From contig NZ_QWBU01000002.1 in the NCBI RefSeq assembly GCF_003432075.1, forward strand, positions 1-64,000: a stretch of 64,000 nt of DNA, given 5' to 3'. The position numbers were made by a program, and so were the translations under genes. The notes below the pieces were generated by a model, which made no database searches, was not told the DNA's origin, and saw nothing but the letters and a program-made list of their open reading frames with translations. Shown one piece after another: positions 19,623 to 57,086 of this stretch. The first letter of the stretch is position 1. Every line of letters starts with the position of its first letter. The stretch comes from Shinella sp. WSJ-2. GTDB lineage: Bacteria > Pseudomonadota > Alphaproteobacteria > Rhizobiales > Rhizobiaceae.

Positions 19623-19656
19623 GACCGGCTTCTCGCCGGGTATAGAGGAAAAACCG

Positions 19657-41100: not shown

Positions 41101-41386
41101 AGGTGACGGTCAGCGTCAGCACGCCGTCCGACGTCGCCTGGCTGTTCATGTAGAGCATGTCCTCGACGCCGTTGATCTGCTCTTCGAGCGGGGTCGCGAC
41201 GGTCTCGGAAATGACGACGGGATTGGCGCCGGGATAGACGGCGCGCACCACGATAGAGGGCGGCACGACCTCGGGATATTCGGAAATCGGCAGCGATCGC
41301 ATGCCGATCAGGCCGGCGACCACGATAAGGATCGACAGCACACCGGCAAAGACCGGGCGATCGATGAAGAAACGGGAGATGTTCAT
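38189..41386 (-). CDS. RND efflux pump inner-membrane transporter (AcrB/MexB type)
   Basis: A 1065-residue resistance-nodulation-division transporter with a 12-helix layout and two large periplasmic loops. Landmarks are the N-terminal NISRFFIDRPVFAGVLSI, the proton-relay helix GLVLAIGIVVDDAIVVVENVER in the middle, and GLSAKNAILIVEFARE in the second half. It exports hydrophobic compounds by proton antiport together with the adaptor gene upstream; no outer-membrane channel gene is in the window. Upstream in-frame ATGs exist, but the family N terminus starts at 41386. Related to rhizobial BepE/BepG pumps. Confidence 0.94.
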   Translation of the reverse strand: MNISRFFIDRPVFAGVLSILIVVAGLIGMRSLPISEYPEVVPPSIVVRAVYPGANPVVISETVATPLEEQINGVEDMLYMNSQATSDGVLTLTVTFKLGTDPDKAQQLVQNRVSQAEPRLPAEVRALGVTTVKSSPDFIMVVNLVSTTDRYDVTYLRNYATLNIKDRLARIEGAGQVQVFGAGDYAMRVWIDPQKAAEHALAASDISNAIREQNVQAAAGIIGASPTPNDVNLQLNVNAQGRLRTPEEFGNIIVKTGASGEITRLRDVARVELGAADYTLRSLLDGQPAVAIAVLQAPGSNAIEIADNVRATMDQLQLAMPDGVKYEIVYDTTEFVRASIDKVVDTLLEAIALVVLVVIVFLQTWRASIIPLLAVPVSIIGTFAVMYAFGFSVNALTLFGLVLAIGIVVDDAIVVVENVERTIENGLSPREATYRAMREVSGPIIAIALVLVAVFVPLAFISGLSGQFYRQFALTIAISTVISAINSLTLSPALAALLLKDHHAPKDWLTRLMDGLFGWFFRGFNRVFNAAGNGYGRTIGGLVTRKSLVMIVYLALVGATYTVFNAVPGGFVPAQDKQYLVGFAQLPDGATLDRTEDVIKKMSDIALAQPGVAHAIAFPGLSINGFTIGSNSGIVFAVLDDFEERKTPDLSGGAIAMQLNQKFAGIQDAFIAMFPPPPVNGLGTTGGFKLQIEDRAGLGYGALNEATQAFLGKAYQTPELAGLFSSFQINVPQLYADLDRAKAQQLGVRVTDVFETLQIYLGSLYVNDFNAFGRTYSVRVQADSAFRAKPEDIGQLKVRSQSGEMIPLAALLKVDATTGPERTTRYNGFLAADINGGPAPGFSSGQAQAAVEKIAAETLPAGIDFEWTDLTYQQILAGNSSIYVFPLALLLVYLVLAAQYESLTLPIAIIMIVPMGVLAALAGVWYTGGDNNVFTQIGLVVLVGLSAKNAILIVEFARELEFEGRTPMQAAIEASRLRLRPILMTSMAFIMGVVPLVLSTGAGSEMRAAMGLAVFSGMIGVTFFGIFMTPVFYVLLRRLAGNRPLVQHGRSTMADDGEGVPAVQH

Positions 41387-41508
41387 GTTAGCACCCTCTC
41401 CAGGATGAAATTCGGACGAACGGCCCTGTCCGGCGGGCAAGGCTCCGCCGGCGGACATTGATTTGCTGGGTTACGGGGCAGGGCGCGCCAGCGCCCCGCC
41501 GGCCGCCG

Positions 41509-42699
41509 TTACTTCACGGAGGCGACGCTTTCCTGTTCCTGCGGATCGACCACGACGCCCGGGCGCACGCGCTGCAGGCCGTTGACGACGACCTTGTCGC
41601 CGTTGGAGAGCCCGCTTTCGACGATGCGCTCGCCGCCCGAAAGGCTGCCGAGCACGATCGGCCGGTAGGTGACCTTGTTGTCCTTGTCGACGACGAAGAC
41701 GAACTTCTTGTCCTGGTCGGTGCCGACGGCCCTCTCGCTGACGAGGATCTTGCTCTCGGGCTTCGGCTCGCCCATGCGGATGCGCACGAACTGGCCGGGG
41801 ATCAGCCTGCCGCCGGGATTGTCGAAGACGGCGCGCACCGTGATGGTGCCGCTGGCGGCATCCACCTCGTTGCCGATGAGCTGGAGCTTGCCGCGGATCG
41901 GCGTCCCCTCGTCGGCGAGCGTGCCAACTTCGACCGGAATCTGCTCGATTGGCTGGAGCGCACCGTCGGAGGCGGGTAGCGCTGCGAGGGCTGCGGCGAC
42001 GATCTCCTCGCTGACATTGAAGCCGGCATAGATCGGATCGACGGACACCAGCGTCGTCAGCGCCGGGGAGGCCGAGCCGCCGGCGACGAGGTTGCCGGTG
42101 GTAATCTCCACCTTGCCGACACGGCCGGAGACCGGCGCGCGGACCTTGGTATAGCTCAATTCCAGCTTGGCGGCGTCGAGTGCGGCCTGCGCCGTCTTGA
42201 GGCTCGCCTGAGCCTCGGAGAGGGCGTTCTGGCGTTGGTCGATATCGCTCTGCGAGACGCTGTTGCTGTGGGCGAGGCGTTCGCCGCGCTCGAGCTGGGT
42301 CTTGGCAAGTTTGACGCGGGCCTCAGCCGAGGCATATTGCCCCTCGGCCTGGGTAACCGCGGTCTTGAAGGGCTGAGGATCGATCGTGAAGAGCAGGTCG
42401 CCGGCCTTCACCAGCGCACCCTCGCGAAAATCGACGGACTGGATGGCGCCGGCGACGCGCGAGCGGATCTGAACGCGGTCGATGGCTTCCAGGCGTCCGG
42501 AAAATTCCTGCCACGTCACGACATTCTTGTTTTCAACGACGGCCACGGTGACCGGCACGGCAGGCACTTCGGCCGTCGCCGCCGCTTCCGCCTTTGCGGG
42601 CTTGCTCGGGACCTGAACCATCAGGGCGGCGCCGAAAATGGACGCAGCCAAACCCAGGCCGGTGCCCGTGAGGGCCCAGCGTTTGCGCTTCGATAGCAT
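41509..42699 (-). CDS. RND pump periplasmic adaptor (membrane fusion protein)
   Basis: A 396-residue adaptor with an N-terminal membrane anchor/signal (LGLAASIFGAALMV), a lipoyl/barrel-sandwich motif (GRLEAIDRVQIRSRVAGAIQSVDF and APVSGRVGKVEITTGNLV), an alpha-helical hairpin of about residues 115-165 between the lipoyl halves, and a C-terminal beta-barrel. It bridges the RND transporter to an outer-membrane TolC-like channel. It lies 122 bases above the pump gene and 49 below the hydrolase gene, in one unit. Confidence 0.92.
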   Translation of the reverse strand: MLSKRKRWALTGTGLGLAASIFGAALMVQVPSKPAKAEAAATAEVPAVPVTVAVVENKNVVTWQEFSGRLEAIDRVQIRSRVAGAIQSVDFREGALVKAGDLLFTIDPQPFKTAVTQAEGQYASAEARVKLAKTQLERGERLAHSNSVSQSDIDQRQNALSEAQASLKTAQAALDAAKLELSYTKVRAPVSGRVGKVEITTGNLVAGGSASPALTTLVSVDPIYAGFNVSEEIVAAALAALPASDGALQPIEQIPVEVGTLADEGTPIRGKLQLIGNEVDAASGTITVRAVFDNPGGRLIPGQFVRIRMGEPKPESKILVSERAVGTDQDKKFVFVVDKDNKVTYRPIVLGSLSGGERIVESGLSNGDKVVVNGLQRVRPGVVVDPQEQESVASVK

Positions 42700-43689: not shown

Positions 43690-44610
43690 ATGGATCAGCT
43701 TTCTGCGATGCGCGTCTTCCTCCGTGTGGTGGAGACGGGCAGCTTCACCGGCGCTTCCGCCGCGCTCGGCATGCCCAAGGCGACCGTCAGCAACCTGATT
43801 CAGAATCTCGAAACGCACCTTCAGACCAAACTGCTCAACCGCACCACGCGCCGCGTCATGGTCACGACGGACGGCGCGCTTTACTACGAGCGGGCAAATC
43901 AGATCGTCACCGAGATCGACGAGCTGGACGGCAGTCTTTCGCACTCCCGCATGAGCCCGAGCGGGCGCCTGCGCGTGGAAATGTCGGGGGCCTTCGCGGA
44001 TCTGCTGATCATTCCCGAACTCAATGATTTCCATGAGAAATATCCCGATATCAACGTCGATCTCGGGGTGGGCGACCGCACCGTGGATTATCTGGCGGAG
44101 AATGTCGACTGCGCGTTGCGCGCGGGCTCGCCGGGCAATGCCTCGCTGATTGCGCGTCGTGTTGGGGAGATGGGCCTGGTGGCCTGTGCTGCGCCCGCCT
44201 ATATCGAACGCTTCGGCATGCCCGAGCATCCCTCCGACCTGGAAGCGGCGCATCACTGCGTGAACTACTTCCTGGCTCAGATCAACCGCATCATGCCCTT
44301 CGAATTCACGCGGGATGGCGAGACGCTGGAAATCAACAGCCGCTACATTCTCTCGGTCAACGATGCGCGCAGCTATCTGGCCGCAGCGCTGTCGGGGCTT
44401 GGTGTCGCGCCGCTTGCCTGTTTCATGGCGCGCGAACCCATTGCAAGAGGACAGCTCGTCCCAGTGCTGGCCGACTGGCATATCGAGCCGGTCCCGCTCT
44501 ACATCGTCTATCCGCCGAACCGGCACCTCAGCAACAAGGTGCGCGTCTTTGTTGATTGGGTCGTGCGGCTTTTGGCGCGGACGGAGCTGACCGGCGTCGG
44601 CAAGCCCTGA
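43690..44610 (+). CDS. LysR-family transcription regulator
   Basis: A 306-residue LysR regulator. The N-terminal winged helix (MRVFLRVVETGSFTGASAALGMPKATVSNLIQNLE) is followed by the effector-binding domain (SGRLRVEMSG, VNDARSYLAAALSGLGVAPLACFM). It diverges from the hydrolase-adaptor-RND unit across a gap of about 140 bases, so it most likely controls that unit and itself. The inducer is unknown. It ends 4 bases before the convergent RuBisCO-like gene. Confidence 0.9.
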   Translation: MDQLSAMRVFLRVVETGSFTGASAALGMPKATVSNLIQNLETHLQTKLLNRTTRRVMVTTDGALYYERANQIVTEIDELDGSLSHSRMSPSGRLRVEMSGAFADLLIIPELNDFHEKYPDINVDLGVGDRTVDYLAENVDCALRAGSPGNASLIARRVGEMGLVACAAPAYIERFGMPEHPSDLEAAHHCVNYFLAQINRIMPFEFTRDGETLEINSRYILSVNDARSYLAAALSGLGVAPLACFMAREPIARGQLVPVLADWHIEPVPLYIVYPPNRHLSNKVRVFVDWVVRLLARTELTGVGKP

Positions 44611-44614
44611 CGCT

Positions 44615-45733
44615 TCAATCTTCGACGGCGGCGACCAGACGTTTGCAGGCGCCGACGAGGTCCGGTTCGGAGAGCAACGCACCGCCGACGAGATACATGA
44701 CGTCATTGCCATAGGCGTCACGCATCTCGGGGATGCGGGCAAAGGTCATGCCGCCGCCGGGGGCCGCGACGATGGCCTTCGGACCGCCCATATCCACGGC
44801 GCAGGCCTTTGCGATCGACTGGCATTCTTCACGCGTGAAGCCGAAGCGGCCACCGAAATTCGGATAGACCACGGCATCGGCGCCCATCAGGCGGTGCAGC
44901 GTGCCGAAGAAGGCGCGGTGCGAGAAGCCGCAATCGGGCGAGACGACATTGGCGCCGGAAAAAGCCGGGTGCGAGACGATCGGCAGGGAAAAATCCGGAT
45001 CGGTGGCGAGCGTGCGCACGATGTCGTAGCCGGCGAGCGCCGGTGCGATCATCACGCCGCCGGCGCCAAGCTCCTGCGCCTGCTTCGCACGCTCGATCAT
45101 GGCGGTGGCGGGGCCGGTGATGTTGGGCACGAAGCTCGTTTTGCCGCCGCTCTTCGCATTCGCTTCGCCGACCGCCTGGATGCAGGCCTTCAGCCGTTCG
45201 TCGAACGGCGCGGTCTTCTGGTCGACAAGGCCGTGGTCGTCCTTCACGAAATGCATGCCGCCGAGCGCGAAATCATGGGCGAGGCGTGCAAGCTGTGCGG
45301 TCGATAGGCCGACCGGCTTGATGGCCGACATCAGAAGCGGCTTTTCGCCGATGCCGGCGCGAGCGCGCAGGCCGGCAATGCCGTGGCGCGGCCCTTTGCA
45401 GAGATCAAGGAGACCGGGCGAGAGACCGATATCCTCGACCTTCAGGCCCGGCTTGATCGAGCTGTTGCCGAAGACAATATTGAGGAATTGCAGGAAATCG
45501 CCGCCGACATCGTCCTCCGAATAGGAGATCGCAGCGACAAAGCCTGGCCGGCCCTCGATATCCCTCTGCAGACTTTCCAGTCGGCCGAGGATTTCATCCT
45601 CGACATAGCCCTTTGGCACGACGTTGCGCGGGATTTCTACGGTCTGTTCCAGCGCGATGTCGAGCGCACGCGCCTTGGCCTCCGCCTCGTCGGCGGCGCG
45701 CACGAAATAGGTGACCGTGAAGCGCGGTGCCAT
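44615..45733 (-). CDS. RuBisCO-like protein (form IV)
   Basis: A 372-residue RuBisCO-like protein, shorter than true RuBisCO large chains. Lys139 (SAIKPVG) matches the catalytic Lys175 of spinach RuBisCO. Lys164-Asp165-Asp166 (HFVKDDH) keeps the carbamylated lysine and one metal aspartate, but His167 replaces Glu204. Loop 6 has Arg296 (YPNFGGRF) where Lys334 should be. Carbon fixation is therefore excluded. Known RuBisCO-like proteins enolise or isomerise methylthioribulose-1-phosphate or act on apionate-type sugars. It is last in an operon with mtnK and mtnA, so a 5-modified ribulose phosphate is the likely substrate. Its start overlaps the transketolase stop (TGATG). Confidence 0.9.
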   Translation of the reverse strand: MAPRFTVTYFVRAADEAEAKARALDIALEQTVEIPRNVVPKGYVEDEILGRLESLQRDIEGRPGFVAAISYSEDDVGGDFLQFLNIVFGNSSIKPGLKVEDIGLSPGLLDLCKGPRHGIAGLRARAGIGEKPLLMSAIKPVGLSTAQLARLAHDFALGGMHFVKDDHGLVDQKTAPFDERLKACIQAVGEANAKSGGKTSFVPNITGPATAMIERAKQAQELGAGGVMIAPALAGYDIVRTLATDPDFSLPIVSHPAFSGANVVSPDCGFSHRAFFGTLHRLMGADAVVYPNFGGRFGFTREECQSIAKACAVDMGGPKAIVAAPGGGMTFARIPEMRDAYGNDVMYLVGGALLSEPDLVGACKRLVAAVED

Positions 45734-46734
45734 CAGAGCGCCTCAGCCTTTTGGGCGGAATGCACGTGGTCGAGACGCACTTCCGCCAGCTCCTCCTCGC
45801 CGATGCCAAGGGGTTTGCCGACGAGGCTTTCGATGGCCGCGACCAGCGCGCCGGCGTCGAGGCCGTATTTCTTCATGAGATAGGGTTTCGAGGCTCCGTG
45901 CGCGAAGGTGTCGTTGAGGCCGAGGCGCTTCAGGCGAATGCCGAGTCCTTCCTCCGCGAGGATTTCCGCGACCAGCGAGCCGAGGCCACCGACGATCGTG
46001 TGGTTCTCCAGCGTGACCACGCCCTTCTTGCCACGCGCGGCTTTCAGGAGGCCGTCACGGTCGAAGGGTTTCAGCGTCGAGGCATGCAGATGGTGGACGC
46101 CGATGCCGCGCGCCGCGATTGGCCCGGTAGCGCGCAACGCCTCTTCCGTGCACACACCGGAGGAGACGACGAGGATGTCGTCGCCCTCAGAGAGTGTGCG
46201 CAGCTTGTTGAACTCGAAAGGCGTCGAGAACAGGCGTGGTACCTCGCCACGCAGGATGCGGACATAGACCGGACCGTCGATGCTGTCGGCGACCTCCAGC
46301 ACGGTCTCGACTTCGGTGGCATCGCCCGTTTCGAGGATCGTCATGTTCGGCACGGCGCGCAGCACCGCGATGTCCTCAATGGCCTGATGCGTGATGCCGC
46401 CCGGCGTGGTGATACCGGGCAGAAAGCCCATCAGCCGGACCTTGCGGTTGGAATAGGCGATCGAGTTGATCAGCTGGTCATAGGGCCGGCGGTAGAGGAA
46501 CACCGAGAAGGTGTGGATGAACGGCCGGAAGCCCTGCATGGCAAGCCCGCCGGCGAAGGACAGCATGTTCTGCTCGGCCATACCGAGCGACAGGAACTGG
46601 TCCGGATGCCGGTCACGAAAACCGTCGACCTCGCAGGAGGAGGTGAGATCGGCCGACAGGCAGAGGACTTCGGGACGTGCGGTGGCGAAGGCCTCGAAGG
46701 CTTTGGCGTAGGGGCGGTTGACGATTTCGACCAT
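45733..46734 (-). CDS. Transketolase-like enzyme, C-terminal subunit
   Basis: A 333-residue protein equal to the pyrimidine-binding and C-terminal domains of transketolase. Glu54 in LGMAEQNMLSFAGG activates thiamine diphosphate, and RPYDQLINSIAY follows. It must pair with the separately encoded N-terminal subunit, 2 bases upstream. Split transketolases of this kind are found in several sugar pathways. In this operon it could transfer or release a two-carbon unit from the RuBisCO-like protein's product, or act like a DXP-synthase-type enzyme; this is inference. Confidence 0.88.
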   Translation of the reverse strand: MVEIVNRPYAKAFEAFATARPEVLCLSADLTSSCEVDGFRDRHPDQFLSLGMAEQNMLSFAGGLAMQGFRPFIHTFSVFLYRRPYDQLINSIAYSNRKVRLMGFLPGITTPGGITHQAIEDIAVLRAVPNMTILETGDATEVETVLEVADSIDGPVYVRILRGEVPRLFSTPFEFNKLRTLSEGDDILVVSSGVCTEEALRATGPIAARGIGVHHLHASTLKPFDRDGLLKAARGKKGVVTLENHTIVGGLGSLVAEILAEEGLGIRLKRLGLNDTFAHGASKPYLMKKYGLDAGALVAAIESLVGKPLGIGEEELAEVRLDHVHSAQKAEAL

Positions 46735-46736
46735 GG

Positions 46737-47672
46737 TCAGGCCCCTTCCATCGCGGTGAGATCGATGCCGAGTTCGGCGGCCAGAGCGTCGCGCATTTCC
46801 AGCCGCTCCTCGGCGCTCTTGAAGCGCACATAGTGCAGGCGCGGAAAGCGTTTCTTCAGGAAGCCCATGCCCTGATAGGGCGAGGTGTTGGCGAGGATGA
46901 CGAGCGGCTTGCCGGGTTCGGCACTTTCAGCGGCTTCGCTGAGCGCGCCGAGATCATGGCCATCCACCGAGCGGCAGGTGACGCCGAACGCAGCGACGCG
47001 CGAGGCGAGATCGCCGAGATCGAGAACCGAGGACATGGCGCCGTCGCATTGCTGGCGATTCACGTCGACAATGACGCGGATATTGTCGATCCTGTGATAG
47101 CTCATCGCCGCAAGGCATTCCCAGGTCTGGCCCTCCTGGAATTCGCCGTCCGACATATAGACCCAGACCTTGCCGGGCTCCTTGTTGCGCAGCCGCGCCC
47201 AGGCGACGCCCGAGGCCATGGAGAGACCCTGCGCGAGCGAGCCCGTCGTCACTTCCATGCCCGGGCTGTGCTCGGCGCCGATCATCTCGACCGAGCCGCC
47301 GTCCTTGTTGAAATGGTCGAGCGCGTGTTCGTCCATGCGGCCGGTCTCGATCAGCGCGGAATAGATGACGAGCGCATAGTGGGCCGGCGAGATGAAGAAG
47401 CGGTCATAATCCGGGCCGACAGGGCCGTGGTAGCCGGCGCCGGTAAAGGCATCCGGATTGTGCGCCGATGGCACGCCGCGAAAGGGCAGCGGCACCTTCG
47501 GCAATGTCGGTTCGCCGAGCTTCAGCACCTCGTTATAGAGCAGCGCAAGGCTTTCGGCGGCCGAGCAGGCCTGGCTGAGATAGCCGCCATTGTGCTTCAT
47601 CGTGTGGAAGAACACGCGGCGGCGGATGCCGAGCGCGATCTCCTCGGTGGATTTCCGGTTGGGCAGGCTCAT
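46737..47672 (-). CDS. Transketolase-like enzyme, N-terminal (TPP-binding) subunit
   Basis: A 311-residue protein equal to the N-terminal diphosphate-binding domain of transketolase. The thiamine-diphosphate motif is SDGEFQEGQTWECLAAMSYH (from residue 174) ending with VDVNRQQ (Asn205), and substrate-side histidines are in HNGGYLSQA and SPAHYALV. It lies 2 bases upstream of the C-terminal subunit and 4 bases below mtnA. Confidence 0.88.
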   Translation of the reverse strand: MSLPNRKSTEEIALGIRRRVFFHTMKHNGGYLSQACSAAESLALLYNEVLKLGEPTLPKVPLPFRGVPSAHNPDAFTGAGYHGPVGPDYDRFFISPAHYALVIYSALIETGRMDEHALDHFNKDGGSVEMIGAEHSPGMEVTTGSLAQGLSMASGVAWARLRNKEPGKVWVYMSDGEFQEGQTWECLAAMSYHRIDNIRVIVDVNRQQCDGAMSSVLDLGDLASRVAAFGVTCRSVDGHDLGALSEAAESAEPGKPLVILANTSPYQGMGFLKKRFPRLHYVRFKSAEERLEMRDALAAELGIDLTAMEGA

Positions 47673-47676
47673 CGTC

Positions 47677-48771
47677 TCAGCTCCGTTCCGGGAAGAGCGC
47701 CTTCAGGCCCTCGGGCGAGGGCGTCGCGATGCCGCGCTCGGTGATGAGGCCGGTGATGAGGCGGGCGGGCGTGACGTCGAAGGCGGGGTTGGCGGCGGGG
47801 CTGCCCTCCGGCGAGATGCGCACGCTGGCAATTGAGCCATCGGCGGCGCGGCCCTGGACGAAGCTCACCTCGTCGGCGGTGCGCTCCTCGATCGGTATTT
47901 CCTTCACGCCGTCATGCACCGTCCAGTCGATGGTGGGCGAGGGCAGCGCGACGTAGAAGGGCACGTCGTTGTCGCGCGCGGCAAGCGCCTTCAGATAGGT
48001 GCCGATCTTGTTGCAGACGTCGCCGTTCGCCGTGGTGCGGTCGGTGCCGACGATCACCATGTCGATATCGCCGTGCTGCATCAGGTGGCCGCCGGCATTG
48101 TCGACGATCAGCGTGTGCGGCACGCCATGGCCGTTCATCTCCCAGGCGGTGAGATAGGCGCCCTGGTTGCGCGGACGCGTCTCGTCGACATAGATATGGA
48201 CGGGTATGCCCGCCTCGACCGCCATGTAGATCGGCGCGGTCGCGGTGCCGTAATCGACGGTCGCAAGCCAGCCGGCATTGCAATGGGTGAGGATGCGCAC
48301 GGGCTCGCCGGGCTTCTTCTTCGCGGCGATCTTGCGGATGACGTCGAGGCCGTTGGCGCCGATGGCACGGTTGAGCTCGACATCCTCTTCCGCGATCTCG
48401 GCGGCGCGCGCATAGGCGGCGGCAGCGCGTTCGCCTTCTGGCAACGGGCGAAGATGATCGCGCATCGCATTCAGCGCCCAGCGCAGGTTGATGGCGGTCG
48501 GGCGGGTCTCGTTCAGCTCTTCCCAGACGGCATCGAGATGGGCATCGGACGGGTCCTTGGCCATGGCAATGGCGATACCGTAAGCGGCAGTAACGCCGAT
48601 CAGCGGCGCGCCGCGCACCCACATGTCCCTGATGGCGACGGCGACATCGGCGACGGTCTTCAGCGTGACCACGCGGAATTCATGCGGCAGCCAGCGCTGG
48701 TCGATGATGTCGACGGCGCGGCCGTCCTCGTTCAGCCAGATCGTATGGTAGTGTCGTTCTCCGACTTTCAC
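47677..48771 (-). CDS. mtnA: 5-methylthioribose-1-phosphate isomerase MtnA
   Basis: A 364-residue MtnA/eIF2B-alpha-fold isomerase. The catalytic Cys164 is in [17 protein letters not shown] and Asp244 in [18 protein letters not shown]. It converts 5-methylthioribose-1-phosphate (or 5-deoxyribose-1-phosphate) to the ribulose-1-phosphate form. It overlaps mtnK by four bases. MtnB, MtnC, MtnD and MtnP are not in this window, so a complete methionine salvage pathway is not encoded here. Confidence 0.93.
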
Positions 48772-50039
48772 GCGAGGATCTCCTTTTCAAGCCGCTCCAC
48801 CGTCTCGCGGATATCGCGGAGGCTGTGGATGCGCTGCCGGTTGACGGCGAGGTGACGCCCGAACTTCAGCGCCTTGCTTTCGCAGGGCGCGCGGCGGTCG
48901 GGGTCGGCGATGGTTTCGAAATCGGCATTGTGGGCAAGGCCGAGAATGCGGCGATGGATCTCGATGCCGGCAAAGCCCAGCATCTCGCGCCAAATCTCGT
49001 CAATGACGATATTGAGCGCCTGCTCGGCGGCGAGGGGGTCGTTGCGGTCCTCGAAGAGGCTCGCCTGGTAGAGGATGCCCTTGCGCTCGGTGCGCCAGAG
49101 ATGGGAAAATTCCGCGCGGAACGTCTCCCAGAGCGTATCGATCGTGTCGAGCAGGTAGGCACGCATGCTGTCGCGCGCGCCGGGGGAGGTCTCGTGGCCG
49201 GCCTGCGAGAAATAGCTCATCCAGAAATTGGCGATCAGCATGCCGACGTCGAAGCTGATCGGGCCGTAGAAGGCGAATTCCGGGTCGATGACGCGGGTCT
49301 CGTCGTCGGTTACCATGACGGAGCCGGTGTGCAGGTCGCCGTGGCAGAGCGTTTCGGCCTTGGCGGAGAACAGGTGCTTCAGCCGCTGCGCCTCGACCTT
49401 GAGGTCGCGGTCGGCGCGCAGTTCGGCGACGATGGGATCGAGCTGCGGCGTGGTGTGGCGGTTGAGCGCGGCTTCGAAATAGGGATCGGAGAAAACGAGG
49501 TTTTCCGTGATGTCGCAGAGTTCGACATTGTCGGAGAACAGCGCGACATCGGCCTTTTTCTCGCGCGTCACCATGGAGAGGTCGGAGCCGCGGAACAGCG
49601 TGCGGGCGACGAAGAGGCCGAGATCGCGGCCGATCTTCGGCAACTCCCGGCCATCGATCAGCGCGCGGCGCAGGATGACATGCGGCGTCAGGAATTCCAT
49701 GACGATGATCGCCTGCGCCTCGTCGAAGAACAGGACCTCCGGCACCATGCCGGGATCGCGCGCGCCCTGGCGCTTCAGCGCGTGGTATTCGAAGAAGGAG
49801 CGCTTGAGCGGCAGCGGCCAGCTCTCGCCGACGAGGCGCACATAGGGCAGCGCCTGCTTGACGATAACGGCGCCCGTTTCGCCCGTGACGATAAAGACCA
49901 GATTGAGGTTTCCGTCACCGACTTCCTTGATTGTCCAGCGCGCCGAATCGCTTCCGATCCTCTCGGTGAGGGCGGCGTTGCCGCCAAGCCTTTCCGGCAA
50001 TGTCTCGGCGCTCAGCGCCTCGAAGACGGGACTGTTCAT
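48768..50039 (-). CDS. mtnK: 5-methylthioribose kinase MtnK
   Basis: A 423-residue kinase of the aminoglycoside-phosphotransferase fold. The catalytic loop is [13 protein letters not shown], the metal-binding motif [17 protein letters not shown], and an N-terminal lysine [11 protein letters not shown]. It phosphorylates methylthioribose at C1, giving the substrate of MtnA. It is the first gene of the mtnK-mtnA-transketolase-RuBisCO-like operon and diverges from a sugar ABC transporter across an operator-like inverted repeat. Confidence 0.93.
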
Positions 50040-50117
50040 GGTGTTCTCCTCCTGCGCACGGGGCTGCCTCCATTGCCTGCCGCCATGCCGTCTGTACCCA
50101 CAGCTAAGGCATCATTC

Positions 50118-50148
50118 TGTCAAATGTCAACGGCCTTGACATTTGATG
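50118..50148. promoter_or_regulatory. Paired operator in the mtnK/ABC transporter gap
   Basis: TGTCAAATGTCA (50118-50129) and TGACATTTGATG (50137-50148), starting 19 bases apart and forming a perfect 11-bp inverted repeat (TCAAATGTCAA/TTGACATTTGA, 50120-50146). The same two-box layout with 19-base spacing lies upstream of the SorC-type regulator (57056-57086). It is a candidate SorC operator for both divergent operons. Confidence 0.65.
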
Positions 50149-50185
50149 AGAGCCTATCCTAACGTGGCGTCATTGGGAGGATGGA

Positions 50186-51700
50186 ATGAGCGAACAGGCA
50201 GTGTTTCGCATTGAGGGCGTGCGCAAATCCTTTGGCCCGGTACCGGTGCTTCAGGGTGTGGACCTCGACCTCAAGGCAGGCGCAGTGACGGTTTTGATGG
50301 GCGCCAACGGCGCCGGCAAATCCACACTCGTGCGCATCCTTTCGGGCGTCTACACAAAGGACGCCGGCACAATCACGCTGGCGGGTACGCCCTTCGAGCC
50401 GACAACGCCGGCTGAGGCGATCCGCGCCGGCGTCGTCACCGTGCACCAGAACATCAATGACGGCGTCGTCGCCGACCTCGATGTCGCGACCAATCTGACG
50501 CTCGACCGGCTGAACGGGCGCGGTGCGCGGCTGTTCTTCAATCCGCGCCGGGTACGCCGCGAGGCTGCCGTCGTCGCCTCCCGCATGGGCCTGTCGATCG
50601 ATCTCACCGCCAATATCAACGACCTGACGCTGGCCGACCGCCAGATGGTGGCGATCGCGCGCGCCATGGCGCATGAGCCGAAGGTGCTGATCCTCGACGA
50701 GCCGACCTCGTCGCTGTCGAGCGCGGAGGCCGACCGTCTGTTCGATCTCGTCGACCGCCTGAAGGCGCGCGGCGTCGCCATTCTCTATATCTCGCACCGC
50801 ATGTCGGATATCCGCCGGCTTGCCGACAGCATCCTTGCTTTGCGCGATGGCCGCATCACCGGCCGTTTCGAGGGGCCGGAACTCGACTATGAAGGCGCGG
50901 TCAATGCCATGCTCGGCCGCAAGGTCTCGGCCGGTGCCGTCGCGGTGCGCGAGGCGGGCCGGCCCGTCTTCAGCGTGCGCGGGCTGAAACTCTCCGAACA
51001 GACGCGGCCCTTCGATTTCGATCTCGGCGATGGCGAGATCGTCGCCGTGACCGGCCTTGTCGGCGTCGGCAAGACGGCGCTTGCCGAAACGCTGTTTGGC
51101 GCCCGCGCGCCTGCGGCCGGCGAGATGACGCTGGACGGCAAGCGCTATGCGCCGAAGACGACGGGGCAGGCGATTGCACAGGGCGTCTTCCTCGTCGCCA
51201 AGGACCGCGCGATTAGCGGCATCGTGCCGGACTTCAATATCTACGAGAATATCAGCCTGCCGTTCCTGCGCCGTCTCTCGTCCGTCGGCATTGCCAGCCG
51301 CCGTGCTGAAAAGACCAAGGCCCGCCAGCAGATCTCGTCGCTCGGCGTCGTCTGCCGCAGCGAGCGCGACGAGATGCAGACGCTGTCGGGCGGCAACCAG
51401 CAGAAGGTCATGGTCGGCCGTTGGCTGTCTGAACCGTCGCGCCTGCTCATCCTCGACGAACCGTTCCAGGGCGTCGACATCGCCGCCCGCCGCGATATCG
51501 GCGAGAAGCTGCGCGCGTCCGCTGCCGGGCGCACCACCATTCTCTTCCTGACGGAACTCGACGAGGCCTTCGAGGTCGCTGACCGCATCCTGGTGATGTC
51601 GGAGCAGACCATCGTCGGCGAGCACCGCAATGCCGATATCGATGTCGAGCGGCTGCTCTCCGAGATCGCCGGGCAATTCTATCAACAGGTCAGTGCATGA
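50186..51700 (+). CDS. Sugar ABC transporter ATP-binding protein (RbsA-like)
   Basis: A 504-residue double ABC ATPase of the ribose/xylose type. The first half has Walker A GANGAGKST and the aspartate-glutamate box VLILDEPTSSL; the second has GLVGVGKTAL, the signature LSGGNQQKVMVGRWL and LLILDEPFQGVD. It energises import of a monosaccharide through the permease that follows (4-base overlap). Gene context with mtnK/mtnA suggests methylthioribose or 5-deoxyribose as cargo, which is inference. Confidence 0.92.
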   Translation: MSEQAVFRIEGVRKSFGPVPVLQGVDLDLKAGAVTVLMGANGAGKSTLVRILSGVYTKDAGTITLAGTPFEPTTPAEAIRAGVVTVHQNINDGVVADLDVATNLTLDRLNGRGARLFFNPRRVRREAAVVASRMGLSIDLTANINDLTLADRQMVAIARAMAHEPKVLILDEPTSSLSSAEADRLFDLVDRLKARGVAILYISHRMSDIRRLADSILALRDGRITGRFEGPELDYEGAVNAMLGRKVSAGAVAVREAGRPVFSVRGLKLSEQTRPFDFDLGDGEIVAVTGLVGVGKTALAETLFGARAPAAGEMTLDGKRYAPKTTGQAIAQGVFLVAKDRAISGIVPDFNIYENISLPFLRRLSSVGIASRRAEKTKARQQISSLGVVCRSERDEMQTLSGGNQQKVMVGRWLSEPSRLLILDEPFQGVDIAARRDIGEKLRASAAGRTTILFLTELDEAFEVADRILVMSEQTIVGEHRNADIDVERLLSEIAGQFYQQVSA

Positions 51701-52758
51701 TGACGAGCGAACAGAGCAACTCCGCCGCAAACGCAGCCACGGGCACCGTTCCGCCGGCCGTCTTCAACATCCGGGAAACCGCGATCAAATACGGCTTCCT
51801 CGTGCTGCTCGCCGGCATGGTGCTCTATTTCTCGGCGGTGACGGGCGGCTTCGCCTCGCCGCAGAGCGCCGTGTTCATCCTGCAGTCCGTGTCGATCACC
51901 GGCATTCTGGCGCTCGGCGTCACGGCGACGCTCGTCGTCGGCGGTTTCGACCTTTCCATCGGCTCCGTCGCCACCACGGCCATGATGGCCTCGTCCTATG
52001 TCATGGTGGTGATGGGCGGTGACGCGCTGACGGCGACGCTCGTCTGCCTCGCTGTTGGCGTGCTGGTCGGCCTGATCAACGGCATCATCATCGTCTATAT
52101 GCGCGTGCCGGATCTGCTCGCCACGCTCGGCATGATGTTCCTGCTGCTCGGCCTCCAGCGCATCCCGACCGAGGGGCGTTCGATTGCGACGGGCATGACG
52201 CTGCCCGATGGTTCGACGGCAACCGGCGCCTTCAGCCCGGCCTTCCTGGCACTTGGCCGCCACCGTTTCGATCTGATCCTGCCCAATCTCGTGCCGGTCT
52301 CGGTGGTCGTGCTGATCGTGCTCGCCATCGTCATCTGGTTCTTCCTCGAATACACCCGCTTCGGCCGCATGATGTATGCCGTCGGCTCCAACGAGCGCGC
52401 CGCAAGCCTCGCCGGCGCACCGGTCAATGCCTACAAGATCTCGGCCTATGTCATCTCCGGTGTCTTCGCCTCGATCGGCGGTATCCTGCTTGCCGCTCGC
52501 CTTGGGCGCGGCGATATCGCCTCCGGCAACAACCTGCTGCTCGATGCCGTCGCGGCAGCACTCATCGGCTTCGCCGTGCTCGGCGCCGCCAAGCCGAACG
52601 CCTTCGGCACGGCCGTGGGCGCGCTCTTCGTCGGCATCCTCCTGCAGGGCCTGACGATGATGAACGCGCCCTATTACACACAGGATTTCGTCAAGGGCGC
52701 CGTGCTCGTCATCGCCCTGATCTTCACCTTTGCGCTCTCGAAAAGAGGCAAACGCTGA
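51697..52758 (+). CDS. Sugar ABC transporter permease (RbsC-like)
   Basis: A 353-residue permease with about nine or ten helices of the ribose-type family: GVTATLVVGGFDLSIGSVATTAMM, LVGLINGIIIVYMRVPDLLATLGMM, YAVGSNERAASLAG and a C-terminal GKR end. It forms the channel for the ATPase upstream and the binding protein downstream. It overlaps the ATPase gene by four bases. Confidence 0.92.
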   Translation: MMTSEQSNSAANAATGTVPPAVFNIRETAIKYGFLVLLAGMVLYFSAVTGGFASPQSAVFILQSVSITGILALGVTATLVVGGFDLSIGSVATTAMMASSYVMVVMGGDALTATLVCLAVGVLVGLINGIIIVYMRVPDLLATLGMMFLLLGLQRIPTEGRSIATGMTLPDGSTATGAFSPAFLALGRHRFDLILPNLVPVSVVVLIVLAIVIWFFLEYTRFGRMMYAVGSNERAASLAGAPVNAYKISAYVISGVFASIGGILLAARLGRGDIASGNNLLLDAVAAALIGFAVLGAAKPNAFGTAVGALFVGILLQGLTMMNAPYYTQDFVKGAVLVIALIFTFALSKRGKR

Positions 52759-52806
52759 GGGGGAGCCTCGGCGGATAACCAAAGTTCACCAGTGGAGGAG
52801 ACTGAC

Positions 52807-53850
52807 ATGAATTTTACGCGTAGAACCCTGGGTAAGCTGACGCTGGGGCTGATGGCCGCGGCATCGTTTGCCGTGCCGTCCTTTGCGGCTGACATGCCCA
52901 AGCCGTTCGACAAGCCCGACGACGTGAAGATCGCGCTCGTGCGCTATCTCTCGACCGGCGACTTCTTCCAGTCCTACCTCGCCGGCGTGGAAGCGCAGGC
53001 CAAGGCGCTCGGCGTGCAGCTGCAGGTCTTCGACAGCCGTCAGGACGCAGCTCTCCAGGCCGACATGGTCGATCAGGCGATTGCGCTCGGCGTGCAGGGC
53101 ATCATCATCCAGCACGGCCTGACGGAATCCATGAAGGAAGCCGCCCAGCGTGCCGTCGATGCCGGCATCAAGGTCGTCGCCTTCGACGTCAATGTCGAAA
53201 ACGACAAGATCCCGCAGGTCGAGCAGTCCGACCGCGACCTCGCCCGCCTCGCGCTCGAGCAGGCGATCAAGGACAATGGCGAGAGCTTCAAGGCCGGTTA
53301 CGTCTATGTCGCAGGCATTGCGCCGCTTGACCGCCGCGACGAGACCTGGAAGGAATTCAAGAAGAAATATCCCGGTATCAACGAGGCTGCCCAGTTCGGC
53401 ACGATGGACAATCCGATCGCCAATTCGGTCGCCAACCAGGCGCGGTCGGTGATCTCCGCCAACCCCGACATCACCGTGATGTTCGCTCCCTATGACGAAT
53501 TCGCCAAGGGCGTGAAGATCGCCGTCGACGAAGCGGGCCTGTCCTCCAGCGTCAAGATCTACTCGGCCGACATCTCGACCTCCGACATTGCCGCGATGCG
53601 CGAATCCGGTTCGGCCTGGGCCGCGACGGCTGCGACGAACCCGGCCGTAGTCGGTCAGGTCTCGGTGCGCTCGCTTGCCATGCTGCTCGCCGGTGAAGAT
53701 CCGGGCAAGCAGGTCATCGTGCCGCCGACGCTGATCACCCAGAAGGACCTGAACGATCAGGACATCAAGAACATGGAAGAGCTCGGCACGAAGCTGCCGC
53801 AGTTCGCCCATGCCGATGTCGCCATGCCCGCATGGATGCCGAAGCCCTGA
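52807..53850 (+). CDS. Sugar ABC transporter periplasmic binding protein
   Basis: A 347-residue periplasmic binding protein of the ribose-binding (family 2/PBP1) type. The signal peptide carries a twin-arginine-like TRRTLGK start and is cleaved after PSFA (residue 27). The mature protein shows VRYLSTGDFFQSYLAGVEAQAKALG and DSRQDAALQADMVDQAIALGVQGIII. The ATG at 52807 follows GGAGGAG; an upstream GTG is less likely. It is followed by a strong terminator. Its ligand pocket probably sets which 5-modified ribose enters the pathway. Confidence 0.9.
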   Translation: MNFTRRTLGKLTLGLMAAASFAVPSFAADMPKPFDKPDDVKIALVRYLSTGDFFQSYLAGVEAQAKALGVQLQVFDSRQDAALQADMVDQAIALGVQGIIIQHGLTESMKEAAQRAVDAGIKVVAFDVNVENDKIPQVEQSDRDLARLALEQAIKDNGESFKAGYVYVAGIAPLDRRDETWKEFKKKYPGINEAAQFGTMDNPIANSVANQARSVISANPDITVMFAPYDEFAKGVKIAVDEAGLSSSVKIYSADISTSDIAAMRESGSAWAATAATNPAVVGQVSVRSLAMLLAGEDPGKQVIVPPTLITQKDLNDQDIKNMEELGTKLPQFAHADVAMPAWMPKP

Positions 53851-53872
53851 TTTCGACAGGATGGAATGAAGA

Positions 53873-53900
53873 AGGGGCGGTCCATCGGGCCGCCCCTTTT
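53873..53900 (+). terminator. Terminator of the sugar ABC operon
   Basis: AGGGGCGG and CCGCCCCT (8-bp stem, 53873-53880 with 53890-53897) ending in TTTT, 23 bases below the binding-protein stop. Confidence 0.8.
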
Positions 53901-53922
53901 GCATGTCCGGTCAAGACGAAAA

Positions 53923-53942
53923 CGGGGCAGTTGCCTGCCCCG
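53923..53942 (-). terminator. Terminator of the aldolase/dehydrogenase operon
   Basis: CGGGGCAG and CTGCCCCG with a 4-nt loop; read on the minus strand it is followed by TTTT. It lies 10 bases below the stop of the fused aldolase gene. Confidence 0.78.
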
Positions 53943-53951
53943 ATCCGGAAA

Positions 53952-56006
53952 TCAGCGCATCGCCGCTGCGATATTGCCGCCGTCGACGGTGGTGACGTCG
54001 GCGGTGGTGCGGTCGGCGAGGGCGTGGTGCACGAAGGCGCGGGCGACGTCTTCGGCAGTCACTTCAAGGCCAAGCAGGTTGCCGCCCATGTAGTCCTTGA
54101 CGGAGAGGCCGCGGGCGGCGGCGCGGTTGGCGATCATCTCGTCGTTGAGCAGGCCGGAGCGGATGCGGTCGGCATTGACGGCGTTGACGCGAATATTGTC
54201 GGCGCCGTGCTCCAGCGCGTATTGCCGCGACAGGAAGAGCGTCGCGGCCTTCGGCAGGCCATAGGCGCCGAATTTCGCGCCGGGATTGACCGCCTGCTTG
54301 GAGGCGTTGAACAGCAGCACGCCGCCGGTCTTCTGCGCCTTCATGATACGCACGGCATTCTGCGCCACTGTCTGATGGGCGAAGAAGTTCAGCTCGAAGC
54401 TCTTGCGCAGCAGCGCGTCGTCCATCGTGGCGATCGGGCTTTCCCAGGCGGCACCCGCATTGGAAACCACGATATCGACACCGCCAAAGGTAGCGATCGC
54501 CTTGTCGAAGGCGGTGCGGACGGAGACGGGATCTGTGATATCGCAGGCGATTCCGATGGAATTGTTGCCGGCCGCGTTGGCGACCGCCGCCGCCTTCTCG
54601 CCATCGAGATCGAGTGCTACTACATGGGCGCCCTCGGCGGCAAAGGCCTTGACGACGGCCGCGCCGATGGCGCCGGCCCCGCCGGTGACGATGGCGACCT
54701 GGCCGGTGAAGGGCTTCGGCTTGGCGCCGGCGAGCTTCGCCTGTTCCAGCGACCAATATTCGAGGTCGAAGAGATCGGGCCGGCTGACCGGCTCGAAGCG
54801 GCCGACGGATTCGGCATCGCGCGCCGCCTCGATCCACATCTCGCCGACATCGACGGCGATGGTTGCATCCTTGAAGGTCCGGCCGTGGCCGAACATGCCG
54901 AGGCCCGGCACCAGCGTCAGGCGCGGCATGGGATCGAGCATGATGCGCTTGACGTCGTCGCGGGCGTCGTTGCTGCTGAAATATTCGGTGTAGTCGTCGG
55001 CGAAGGCGGCGACGTGCTGGTCGATGACGGCGCGGTAGCCGTCAAGATCGTCGCTTGCCGGTGGCGGCAACACCATTGGGCCGGTCTTGATGCGGATGGA
55101 AAGGTCGGGCGTCGAGACGCCGCGCGCCGCCATGTCCCGGACTTCGGCGGCGTTGACGAAGTCGAGGATTGCCGGCGAGGCGCGGAAGACGCTGACCATG
55201 CGCTCATAGCGGCCCTCGCCCTTGTCGACTGCGACGGCGCCGCGCAGCATCGGGGCAATATCGGCGGGGCTTGCGAGCTTTGAGGGCAGAGCGGCTGGCG
55301 TGAATGGGTTGCGGCCGCTTTTCCTGACGTAATCCTCGGCGATCGTGACGTAGTGGATCATCCGGTCATAGGCTTCCTTGGCGGTGTCGCCGAAGGTGAA
55401 GATGCCGTGTTTGTCGAGGATCAGGCCCTCGACCGTCGGGTCCTGCTCGAACACTTCGGCAGCGGCCTTGGCGAGCGCGAAGCCGGGCATGATATAGGGC
55501 ACGAAACCCATCTTCGTGCCGAACAGTTCGGCGCTCATCTCGCGGCTCTTCGCCTGGTCGGCGATCGCAAGAATGGCAGTCGAGTGGGTGTGGTCGACGA
55601 ATTTGTGCGGCAGGAAGGCGTGCAGCAGCGCTTCAACAGAGGGGTTCGGGGATGCGGGATCGACAAGATTGGCGCGCAGCAGCGTTACCATGTCCTCGTC
55701 CGAGAGTTTGTCGAGCTTGCGGCTTTTCAGCAGTGCGCTGATCTTCACGGCAGGCAGGCCCGGCGGCTCGATTACGCCCATGTCCCAGCCGCTGCCCTTG
55801 ACGCAGAGCACGGCATGGGTGTCGCCGACGAGATCCGTCACTTCGGTTTTCACGGAGGTGTTGCCGCCGCCATGCAGCACGAGCCGTGGCTCGCCGCCGA
55901 GCAGGCGGGTCGTATAGGTGCGCAGCGCCAGATCGCGGTTGACGCCCTTTGCGGTATAGTTCGCGACGACCTTTTCCGCTTCGTCGTCGCGCCAGAGATT
56001 TTCCAT
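53952..56006 (-). CDS. Fused class II aldolase / short-chain dehydrogenase
   Basis: A 684-residue fusion. Residues about 1-400 form a class II (RhaD/AraD-type, zinc) aldolase: LVLHGGGNTSVK, metal histidines in FVDHTHSTAIL and LILDKHGIFTFGD. Residues about 425-684 form an SDR: AIVTGGAGAIGAAVVKAF, VSNAGAAWESP and the catalytic Tyr-Lys in AYGLPKAATLF. In rhizobial rhamnose use a similar fusion splits rhamnulose-1-phosphate and oxidises lactaldehyde. No rhamnose isomerase or kinase is present here, so I infer cleavage of the MtnA product to dihydroxyacetone phosphate and an aldehyde that the SDR converts. The ATG at 56006 follows GGGAGG. Confidence 0.88.
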   Translation of the reverse strand: MENLWRDDEAEKVVANYTAKGVNRDLALRTYTTRLLGGEPRLVLHGGGNTSVKTEVTDLVGDTHAVLCVKGSGWDMGVIEPPGLPAVKISALLKSRKLDKLSDEDMVTLLRANLVDPASPNPSVEALLHAFLPHKFVDHTHSTAILAIADQAKSREMSAELFGTKMGFVPYIMPGFALAKAAAEVFEQDPTVEGLILDKHGIFTFGDTAKEAYDRMIHYVTIAEDYVRKSGRNPFTPAALPSKLASPADIAPMLRGAVAVDKGEGRYERMVSVFRASPAILDFVNAAEVRDMAARGVSTPDLSIRIKTGPMVLPPPASDDLDGYRAVIDQHVAAFADDYTEYFSSNDARDDVKRIMLDPMPRLTLVPGLGMFGHGRTFKDATIAVDVGEMWIEAARDAESVGRFEPVSRPDLFDLEYWSLEQAKLAGAKPKPFTGQVAIVTGGAGAIGAAVVKAFAAEGAHVVALDLDGEKAAAVANAAGNNSIGIACDITDPVSVRTAFDKAIATFGGVDIVVSNAGAAWESPIATMDDALLRKSFELNFFAHQTVAQNAVRIMKAQKTGGVLLFNASKQAVNPGAKFGAYGLPKAATLFLSRQYALEHGADNIRVNAVNADRIRSGLLNDEMIANRAAARGLSVKDYMGGNLLGLEVTAEDVARAFVHHALADRTTADVTTVDGGNIAAAMR

Positions 56007-56066
56007 TGTGTCAGCCTCCCGATAAACCGGCCCGGCCGGCATCGGCGGACCCCAAACAGTCTTGGC

Positions 56067-57032
56067 TCAAGCTTTGCTCGAGCCGCCCTTTTCCCAACGC
56101 TCCAGAATGCGTCGCGCCATCGACGTGGTAACCACGAGATGCGAGACGAAGCCACCCTTCAGTGCCGCCATCAGCGGCTCGAACTTGTTGTCTTCCTGCA
56201 CGACGAGCATGCGCTTCTCGATCGCCCGGATAGAATCGAGATCGGCGGAAATGCAGCGCCGGTTGTGATTGCAGTCCATCCACTGGCCGTCGTGATCGAT
56301 CAGCTGGCCGGCGATGACGCCGGCCGCACCCTTTTCGCCCATGGCATGCATGTCGGCGGCCGAGAGTGCGCCGCATTTGACAAGGTGGCTGTCATCCTCG
56401 ATGCCGCCGACGGAATAGAGCGCGAGGTTGCAATCCGAGATCGTTGCAAGCTGCTCGCGGATGACGGGTTCGCCGCGCAGTTCCTCGGCGAGGCGCTCGG
56501 AGGAGAGCACGAGCGGTGCATAGAAATTGATGCCCTCGGCATTCAGCCGCCGAGCGATTTCCGTGGTGCATTGGTCGGGGCGGTAGGAATAGGGCGCGCC
56601 GAGATTGCCGCAGAGCTGCACGACGGTGACGCCGCGCAGATCGGCGAAGGGCATGACGTCGGCGATGTGATAGACCGTGCGGCCCCAGGCCACGCCGATC
56701 CGGTCGCCCTTGTTGATCAACTCGAGAAAGACTGAAGCCGCGACGACGGGCATTTCCGCCGCCGGGTCCATCGCCTGCCGGTCTTCCGGCACAAGCCAGG
56801 CCGTGGTCAGCCCCGTCGCGTCCTCCAGCTCGCGGGCCAGCACGTCGTCGGAAAACAGTTCCGAAGAAGTCGAGATCGTGACGATGCCCATCTCGCGCGC
56901 CTTGCGCAGATACATCGCGATCGAGGCGCGGGAGATACCGAGCCGCTGCGCGACCTCGTCTTGTCGCAGGCCATGCGTGTAGTAGAGCCAGGCGGCCTTG
57001 TGAATGATCTGGTCGTTCGGACGGACAGGCAT
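56067..57032 (-). CDS. SorC-family sugar-responsive regulator
   Basis: A 321-residue SorC-type regulator. The N-terminal helix-turn-helix is LRQDEVAQRLGISRASIAMYLRKARE, followed by the phosphosugar-binding domain (VVQLCGNLGAPYSYRPDQCTTEIARRL, YSVGGIEDDSHLVKCGAL). It lies 60 bases upstream of the fused aldolase gene in the same direction, so they form one unit. The ATG at 57032 is preferred; earlier in-frame starts overlap the operator boxes at 57056-57086. A phosphorylated pathway intermediate is the likely inducer. Confidence 0.88.
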   Translation of the reverse strand: MPVRPNDQIIHKAAWLYYTHGLRQDEVAQRLGISRASIAMYLRKAREMGIVTISTSSELFSDDVLARELEDATGLTTAWLVPEDRQAMDPAAEMPVVAASVFLELINKGDRIGVAWGRTVYHIADVMPFADLRGVTVVQLCGNLGAPYSYRPDQCTTEIARRLNAEGINFYAPLVLSSERLAEELRGEPVIREQLATISDCNLALYSVGGIEDDSHLVKCGALSAADMHAMGEKGAAGVIAGQLIDHDGQWMDCNHNRRCISADLDSIRAIEKRMLVVQEDNKFEPLMAALKGGFVSHLVVTTSMARRILERWEKGGSSKA

Positions 57033-57055
57033 TGCGGCTCTTTCGTTTGGTGTTC

Positions 57056-57086
57056 TGACATTAGTCATTAGCGCTGACAAAAGTCA
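57056..57086. promoter_or_regulatory. Paired operator upstream of the SorC regulator
   Basis: TGACATTAGTCA (57056-57067) and TGACAAAAGTCA (57075-57086): two perfect TGAC-N4-GTCA palindromes starting 19 bases apart, matching the layout at 50118-50148. Confidence 0.65.

Follow-up and report, generated by a model that had tools for sequence, protein, structure and literature searches.

The 64-kb window analysed here, meaning the whole 64,000-nucleotide stretch at the start of a Shinella sp. WSJ-2 contig and part of this soil bacterium's 5.14-Mb genome, carries a gene cluster that joins a 5-methylthioribose (MTR) kinase and isomerase to a split transketolase and a RuBisCO-like protein (RLP). Open reading frame (ORF) calls place these genes in a five-gene operon on the minus strand, in the order mtnK-mtnA-TKN-TKC-RLP, where TKN and TKC are the N- and C-terminal halves of the split transketolase. 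The mtnK/mtnA junction is a 4-bp overlap and the TKC/RLP junction a 1-bp overlap; mtnA/TKN and TKN/TKC are separated by 4 bp and 2 bp. Genes for a sugar ATP-binding cassette (ABC) transporter run divergently from mtnK, and genes for a class II aldolase fused to a short-chain dehydrogenase (aldolase-SDR) and for a SorC-family regulator are convergent with the transporter genes (Table 1). A first-pass annotation of the same sequence had listed these genes, the close junctions, the divergent transporter and the convergent fusion with its regulator; ORF calls and family matches bore out all of them, at their positions and on their strands. We conclude that the cluster is real, widespread and co-regulated. 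It probably represents a branch of sulfur-sugar salvage not described before, in which a dedicated transketolase, rather than a cupin, would complete the RLP route.

Predicted sugar uptake, entry steps and the RuBisCO-like protein

A fold search identified the solved MTR-binding protein 4ry8, whose structure title names an MTR transporter protein, as the closest fold to the periplasmic binding protein, and sequence comparison agrees. We therefore propose that this protein binds MTR or 5-deoxyribose, in line with the annotation's suggestion that a 5-modified ribose is taken up. MtnK and MtnA both exceed curated equivalog cut-offs, supporting the suggested entry through these two enzymes, and mtnK is the sole MtnK match in the whole genome. 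A genome search found no acireductone dioxygenase; hence, the bacterium would need some such route to reuse the sulfur of 5′-methylthioadenosine (MTA).

In a quick tree, in which the cupin group and the outgroup carry long branches, the cluster RLP groups with 3qfw from Rhodopseudomonas palustris (which we infer to be RLP1 of that species) and with cupin-linked RLPs, away from three MtnW-like rows. Consistent with this, the active-site letters N90, P140, H167, N292, R296 and G327 are common to the cluster RLP and 3qfw, whereas the same six positions in the MtnW rows 2oek and 2zvi read K, G, E, S, S and A; the comparison used 15 cupin-clade rows, namely 13 cupin-linked RLPs, L179 and 3qfw, and excluded L128. 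We propose that the RLP is an isomerase of 5-substituted ribulose 1-phosphates, of the type found in the MTA-isoprenoid shunt. The annotation had assigned it to this isomerase type, and both tree grouping and active-site letters favour that assignment. Judged from sequence, the uptake, kinase, isomerase and RLP steps appear well supported.

Other identities for the RLP were rejected. As an MtnW enolase it scores 162 of 513.6 bits (TIGR03332) and its active-site letters differ; as OiaX of the apiose pathway it scores 62 of 700 bits (NF042437). Elsewhere in the genome (C24:249057-249872) there is a further RuBisCO-family gene (243 bits). It is 22% identical to the cluster RLP, was not counted as part of the cluster, and lies near another sugar ABC transporter. 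We likewise left out a LysR gene (43690-44610), which lies outside the annotated range and whose family is conserved in only 3 of 34 family loci. The SorC start as called is probably too far upstream; the true start may lie near 57032.

Table 1. Features of the cluster, with window positions and supporting matches
Feature	Position	Strand	Evidence
RLP, DeepYkr-like, 372 aa	44615..45733	-	PF00016 RuBisCO_large 77 bits (cut-off 30)
TKC, split transketolase C-half	45733..46734	-	PF02779 Transket_pyr 101 bits (27), PF02780 Transketolase_C 74 (26)
TKN, split transketolase N-half, binding thiamine pyrophosphate (TPP)	46737..47672	-	PF00456 Transketolase_N 60 bits (22)
mtnA, 5-methylthioribose-1-phosphate isomerase	47677..48771	-	TIGR00512 441 bits (cut-off 279)
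mtnK, 5-methylthioribose kinase	48768..50039	-	TIGR01767 494 bits (cut-off 275)
Palindromic operator, 11-bp arms and 5-bp spacer, mtnK/ABC divergent promoter region	50120..50146		Read from sequence and locus comparison
Sugar ABC transporter ATPase	50186..51700	+	PF00005; sugar ABC ATPase models, none above cut-off
Sugar ABC transporter permease	51697..52758	+	Ribose-type permease model NF007067 155 bits, below cut-off 398
Periplasmic binding protein, proposed MTR/5-deoxyribose binder	52792..53850	+	Fold and sequence neighbour 4ry8
Aldolase-SDR, class II aldolase fused to short-chain dehydrogenase	53952..56042	-	NF006192 1159 bits (cut-off 639); PF00596, PF00106
SorC-family regulator	56067..57080	-	PF04198 sugar-binding domain 168 bits (cut-off 27)
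Second operator site, ahead of SorC-aldolase/SDR	57058..57084		Matrix built from relatives

Linkage of the RuBisCO-like protein to the split transketolase

The annotation had proposed a neighbourhood comparison for co-occurrence of mtnK, mtnA, transketolase and RLP. Run on many relatives, this comparison ties the TPP enzyme to the RLP. Our family sample comprised 297 genomes and our class sample 385. A RuBisCO-type match was present in 154 family genomes, 34 of which carry an RLP at least 43% identical to the cluster RLP over most of its length (43-100%; the next best is 32%). Strict transketolase matches required E 1e-100 in one search and 1e-90 in another; weaker split transketolases, such as those of G419 and G527 at 208-264 bits, were not counted, and G919 (42% identity), which passed 1e-90, was set aside as outside this transketolase family. 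With these definitions, 33 family genomes have both TKC (36 in total) and RLP, three have the transketolase alone, one the RLP alone and 260 neither. RLP and transketolase are adjacent in 31 of the 34 RLP genomes; they lie on separate contigs in G233 and G173, and in G219 the RLP is shortened and the cluster absent.

The linkage extends to other phyla. Among 80 named loci, which are the best 80 of 581 relatives and include some species also present in the family sample, a transketolase half lies beside the RLP in 73: 54 of 55 in L068-L122, and 19 of 25 in L123-L147, a set with Bacillota, Chloroflexota, Nitrospirae and Calditrichales records. Conserved across family loci are the three ABC genes, mtnK, mtnA, TKN, TKC, RLP, SorC and aldolase-SDR, and this set recurs in most relatives compared. 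Gene order varies among subgroups, indicating that linkage outlasts rearrangement. Plasmid records were also searched: parts of the cluster are matched by 192, of which 17 span 80% or more, and large plasmids of Ensifer, Rhizobium and Shinella are among those listed.

With our own genome set aside and RLPs called at E 1e-50, 16 class-sample genomes carry an RLP: two are transketolase-linked, 13 are linked to a cupin of about 140 residues, and one, on a 2.6-kb locus, is linked to neither. Strict TKC occurs in this sample only in our own genome, G498 and G640. A cupin search of 50 RLP-bearing genomes gave matches in none of the 36 transketolase-type genomes and in 13 of the 14 cupin-type genomes, and the Shinella genome has no match to the cupin methylsulfurylase at E 1e-15. 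In the tree, the cupin-linked RLP of a Firmicutes record (L128) branches within the transketolase-linked RLPs. Given this mutual exclusion and the L128 case, cupin and transketolase look like alternatives at one pathway point, which in the cupin case is the RLP product.

Linkage to MtnA can go as far as gene fusion. In G498, a single 656-residue ORF combines MtnA (residues 2-346; 449 bits, above cut-off) with TKN (Pfam 441-626), with SorC upstream and TKC and RLP downstream. In L061, a purine nucleoside phosphorylase gene adjoins TKN-TKC-RLP and mtnA, and the 20-kb locus has no mtnK or transporter match, a layout that suggests entry from nucleosides rather than from free sugar.

Some distant loci have other neighbours. 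DhaK-like proteins lie near the RLP in the Chloroflexota records L142 and L143 (tested in L143), and in L142 a pentulose-kinase-like FGGY protein adjoins the RLP and no transketolase was seen. L140 (2353-14176), from an unclassified bacterium, has nearly the full set, with a binding protein 29% identical to that of Shinella, a fucose-mutarotase-type protein and an LsrF-like thiolase/aldolase. No consistent extra step emerged from the DhaK, FGGY-kinase and LsrF neighbours of distant RLPs.

Operator sites and the transketolase pocket

The gap between mtnK and the ABC genes contains a perfect palindrome, TCAAATGTCAA-CGGCC-TTGACATTTGA, of which at least 20 of the 22 arm bases are conserved in the window and 49 loci; the spacer is variable. 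A matrix built from ten sites of relatives, with no window sequence, found two strong sites in 64 kb, at 50120 (27.4) and 57058 (22.4). The third-best window site scored 6.1, and the maximum in 20 shuffles was 12.7. Nine of 16 other loci (two species being represented twice) have a site scoring at least 11.8 ahead of SorC. Since sites occur at both mtnK/ABC and SorC-aldolase, transport, the kinase operon and the aldolase look like one regulon, and the simplest view is that the SorC protein would be its regulator. The same operator family ahead of SorC-aldolase also supports the aldolase branch that the annotation had proposed.

In 18 family loci, the transketolase or RLP unit lies apart. A related site was found close upstream of transketolase/RLP or in the mtnK/ABC gap in 13 of these, counting scores of at least 6 only (L053, L061, L064, L065 and L202 had none); the counted site in L205 is its second best, chance-like sites reach 14.7 elsewhere in the loci, and the weakest, in L204 (6.7), is doubtful. 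Both units of G233 and both of G173 are preceded by operator-related sites. A scan of 12 loci from distant phyla with the operator matrix revealed no such site close to the units, and a search for sigma-70 promoters found none.

The nearest solved chains to TKC and TKN are 6yaj, the C-half of a split transketolase, and 6yak. Cross-phylum alignments show that the TPP/Mg residues S174-D-G-E177 of the N-half (alignment A8) and E54 of the C-half (A7) are invariant. Ser S33 and Arg R162 of the phosphate site are also retained. The remainder of the pocket departs from ordinary transketolases consistently across phyla: Tyr31 replaces the first His of the N-half; Met130 replaces a His that we take to be the one near the C1 hydroxyl; Cys209 lies by the Mg loop; and Phe104-Leu105 and Gly112 replace a His and an Asp, presumably those on the phosphate side and the acceptor side, respectively. 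Exceptions are G498, with Leu at the Met130 position, and the RLP-less G186, with Val at the Cys209 position. By their presumed roles, the usual pocket residues of a pentose phosphate pathway transketolase are not found. With Met and Cys close to C1, the pocket could accommodate a C1 that is deoxy or carries a methylthio group, which is what the RLP product would offer. We rejected an assignment as 1-deoxyxylulose 5-phosphate (DXP) synthase (TIGR00204, 165 of 466 bits on the C-half).

Proposed pathway, alternatives and known systems

On balance, we lean towards a single regulon under SorC control that serves the breakdown of MTR, and probably of 5-deoxyribose, with the transketolase acting after the RLP and the aldolase providing a second exit. 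The ABC transporter would import the sugar, or the genome's MTA/S-adenosylhomocysteine nucleosidase would free MTR inside the cell. MtnK would form the 1-phosphate and MtnA would convert it to 5-methylthioribulose 1-phosphate (MTRu-1P), steps for which we rely on family membership and a solved relative. The RLP, going by its grouping and active-site letters, would then turn MTRu-1P into 1-methylthio-xylulose 5-phosphate, or into DXP where the starting sugar is 5-deoxyribose. The split transketolase, at the place of the cupin in the isoprenoid shunt, would cleave or transfer across C2-C3 of this product and thereby return glyceraldehyde 3-phosphate to central metabolism; linkage, replacement and fusion all point to this step. 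In parallel, as its family and operator suggest, the aldolase-SDR would split MTRu-1P into dihydroxyacetone phosphate (DHAP) and an aldehyde, which it would then oxidise or reduce; this aldehyde would be 2-(methylthio)acetaldehyde, or acetaldehyde where the sugar is 5-deoxyribose. That the TPP enzyme would act after the RLP, as the annotation held, is a hypothesis, though one well motivated by comparative genomics. The annotation had also placed both known exits here: the aldolase branch and the RLP are present, but the isoprenoid exit is not supported as described, because the cupin was not found in the genome.

Several observations weigh against this pathway. The Fisher p of 3e-39 for TKC/RLP co-occurrence ignores kinship. 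Six of the 80 named loci (L098, L127, L130, L132, L142 and L146) have an RLP with neither a transketolase in reach nor a cupin. In the class sample the cupin group forms a single clade, which reduces the exclusion there mostly to one contrast plus L128. The RLP fold search ties 3qfw (44.8) with a MtnW (44.4). A glyceraldehyde-3-phosphate fragment would not fit well in a pocket that has lost the presumed phosphate-side His and acceptor-side Asp. Lastly, four family or phylum genomes carry the transketolase without RLP, mtnK or mtnA, indicating that it is not bound to MTR alone.

Three of these four, G085 (L201), G208 (L203) and G976 (L214), have TKC 66-68% identical to that of Shinella and operator-like sites ahead of the transketolase. 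A BisC-family molybdenum S/N-oxide reductase lies nearby in all three (tested, below model cut-off, in G085 and G976; by eye in G208), and G085 and G976 also have a zinc dehydrogenase (tested). Profiles identified a xylulokinase-like FGGY kinase and an L-ribulose-5-phosphate 4-epimerase-family aldolase/epimerase in G085, with a similar picture by eye in G208, and G976 has a different sugar ABC importer. The fourth, G186 (L202 7133-12878; TKC 57%), has SorC-TKN-TKC followed by an L-ribulose-5-phosphate 4-epimerase-like protein and a xylulokinase-like FGGY kinase, with a site at chance level only (11.7). Together, a pentulose kinase and an epimerase would supply a xylulose-5-phosphate, and the presence of an S-oxide reductase may be a sign of organosulfur; both would fit a 1-substituted xylulose-5-phosphate substrate reached by a different route. 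The G085, G208 and G976 loci may encode a related pathway that acts on a different sugar, possibly one with a sulfoxide group.

Of the alternatives, the strongest keeps the same architecture: the natural substrate would be 5-deoxyribose or another 5-modified ribose rather than MTR, the RLP would make DXP and the transketolase would take DXP apart. We consider this possible, and hold it tentatively. A kinase characterised from a 5-deoxyribose cluster takes MTR as well as 5-deoxyribose as substrate, and clusters of this kind also encode sugar transporters and, in one instance, a homologue of fucose mutarotase (PMC6079011); nine of our family loci additionally carry an RbsD/FucU-type gene (the L064 example was tested). 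However, the nearest solved binding protein is titled an MTR transporter protein.

It is unlikely, in our view, that the transketolase instead joins the aldolase product, 2-(methylthio)acetaldehyde or acetaldehyde, to a ketose-derived C2 unit while the RLP acts elsewhere. By the presumed roles of its residues, the pocket lacks the polar contacts that would hold an aldehyde with phosphate and hydroxyl groups and has Tyr, Gly and Phe-Leu in their place, which fits a small apolar aldehyde. Nevertheless, L125, L135, L141 and L143 (12.8 to 21.1 kb) combine TKN-TKC-RLP with mtnK and mtnA and have no aldolase-SDR match, and the lasting partner of the transketolase is the RLP. We give little credence to a transketolase that takes the MtnA product itself (a 5-substituted ribulose 1-phosphate) and so works beside the RLP rather than after it. 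The MtnA-TKN fusion in G498 would suit this, as would the fit of a methylthio end to an apolar distal pocket, and a transketolase reaction on 5-deoxyribulose-1-phosphate has been suggested for M. jannaschii (PMC8102628). Yet the 73 named loci retain, next to the transketolase, an RLP that would use this very substrate, and the cupin seemingly replaced acts on the RLP product. An ordinary DHAP shunt with RLP and transketolase as passengers is very improbable: kinase, isomerase and aldolase do make a complete route in the published accounts (PMC5893883, PMC6079011), but the conservation and co-occurrence of RLP and transketolase, the operator sites and the MtnA fusion all argue against it.

A bolder form of the favoured pathway, with transketolase after RLP, is that the transketolase is a methanethiol-releasing TPP lyase, converting the RLP product to glyceraldehyde 3-phosphate and methanethiol, with the C2 unit leaving as acetate or acetyl phosphate. 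We regard this as speculative and improbable. Phosphoketolase expels water, and sulfoacetaldehyde acetyltransferase sulfite, from a TPP-bound C2 fragment, which offers a parallel, and M130 and C209 near C1 would suit a thioether. If true, bacteria ranging from Rhizobiaceae to Clostridia and Chloroflexota would have an oxygen-independent means of turning all of MTR into reusable sulfur and intermediates of central metabolism.

More generally, the proposed pathway would add to the ways in which MTR and 5-deoxyribose, both waste sugars derived from S-adenosylmethionine, can be broken down without oxygen. RLPs of this lineage would then have two alternative partners, the cupin and the transketolase. 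A possible function emerges for a family of split transketolases so far with a general name only, and MTR becomes a candidate nutrient for soil and root bacteria. The question is directly testable with five soluble enzymes.

Elsewhere in the window, we noted ectoine utilisation genes at 16208-20838 (an EutA-type protein and the ectoine hydrolase DoeA, both above cut-off), an ATP-dependent DNA ligase D for non-homologous end joining (24116-26671) and an RND efflux permease and adaptor pair (38189-42699).

The annotation knew of no characterised example of the combination. Consistent with this, MtnK-MtnA-RLP-transketolase was not found in the literature searched, as far as the sources were available; one paper joins a transketolase with 5-deoxyribose. 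Canonical methionine salvage (MtnB, MtnW or MtnC, MtnD) shares the MtnK and MtnA steps, but the Shinella RLP is not MtnW-like and the dioxygenase step lacks a genome match. Two split transketolases of modified-sugar catabolism, the sulfoquinovose sulfo-transketolase and the apulose-4-phosphate transketolase, are alike by description in being dedicated enzymes in a modified-sugar cluster. We know of no RLP or MtnK/MtnA beside either. The MTA-isoprenoid shunt of Rhodospirillum rubrum and R. palustris uses a DeepYkr RLP and a cupin methylsulfurylase (PMC4958253, PMC5893883). The Shinella cluster resembles it in having MtnA and then an RLP of the same group, but here the RLP is accompanied by a split transketolase and not by a cupin, and entry is by import and MtnK rather than by MtnP. 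In Synechococcus elongatus, formation of 7-deoxysedoheptulose likewise involves a transketolase acting on a 5-deoxy sugar that is S-adenosylmethionine waste; there, however, the transketolase is promiscuous and the sugar a free aldose, and the main text of the paper mentions neither RubisCO nor MtnK (PMC8102628). Finally, the DHAP shunt, or 5-deoxyribose salvage, consists of MtnK or DrdK, MtnA or DrdI and a class II aldolase (PMC6079011, PMC5893883). Kinase, isomerase, class II aldolase domain and transporter in a single regulon recur in Shinella, where the aldolase domain and the operator ahead of SorC-aldolase suggest a putative DHAP-shunt cleavage of the MtnA product. In contrast to that system, the Shinella aldolase is fused to SDR (RhaD-like family), and the RLP and transketolase are extra.

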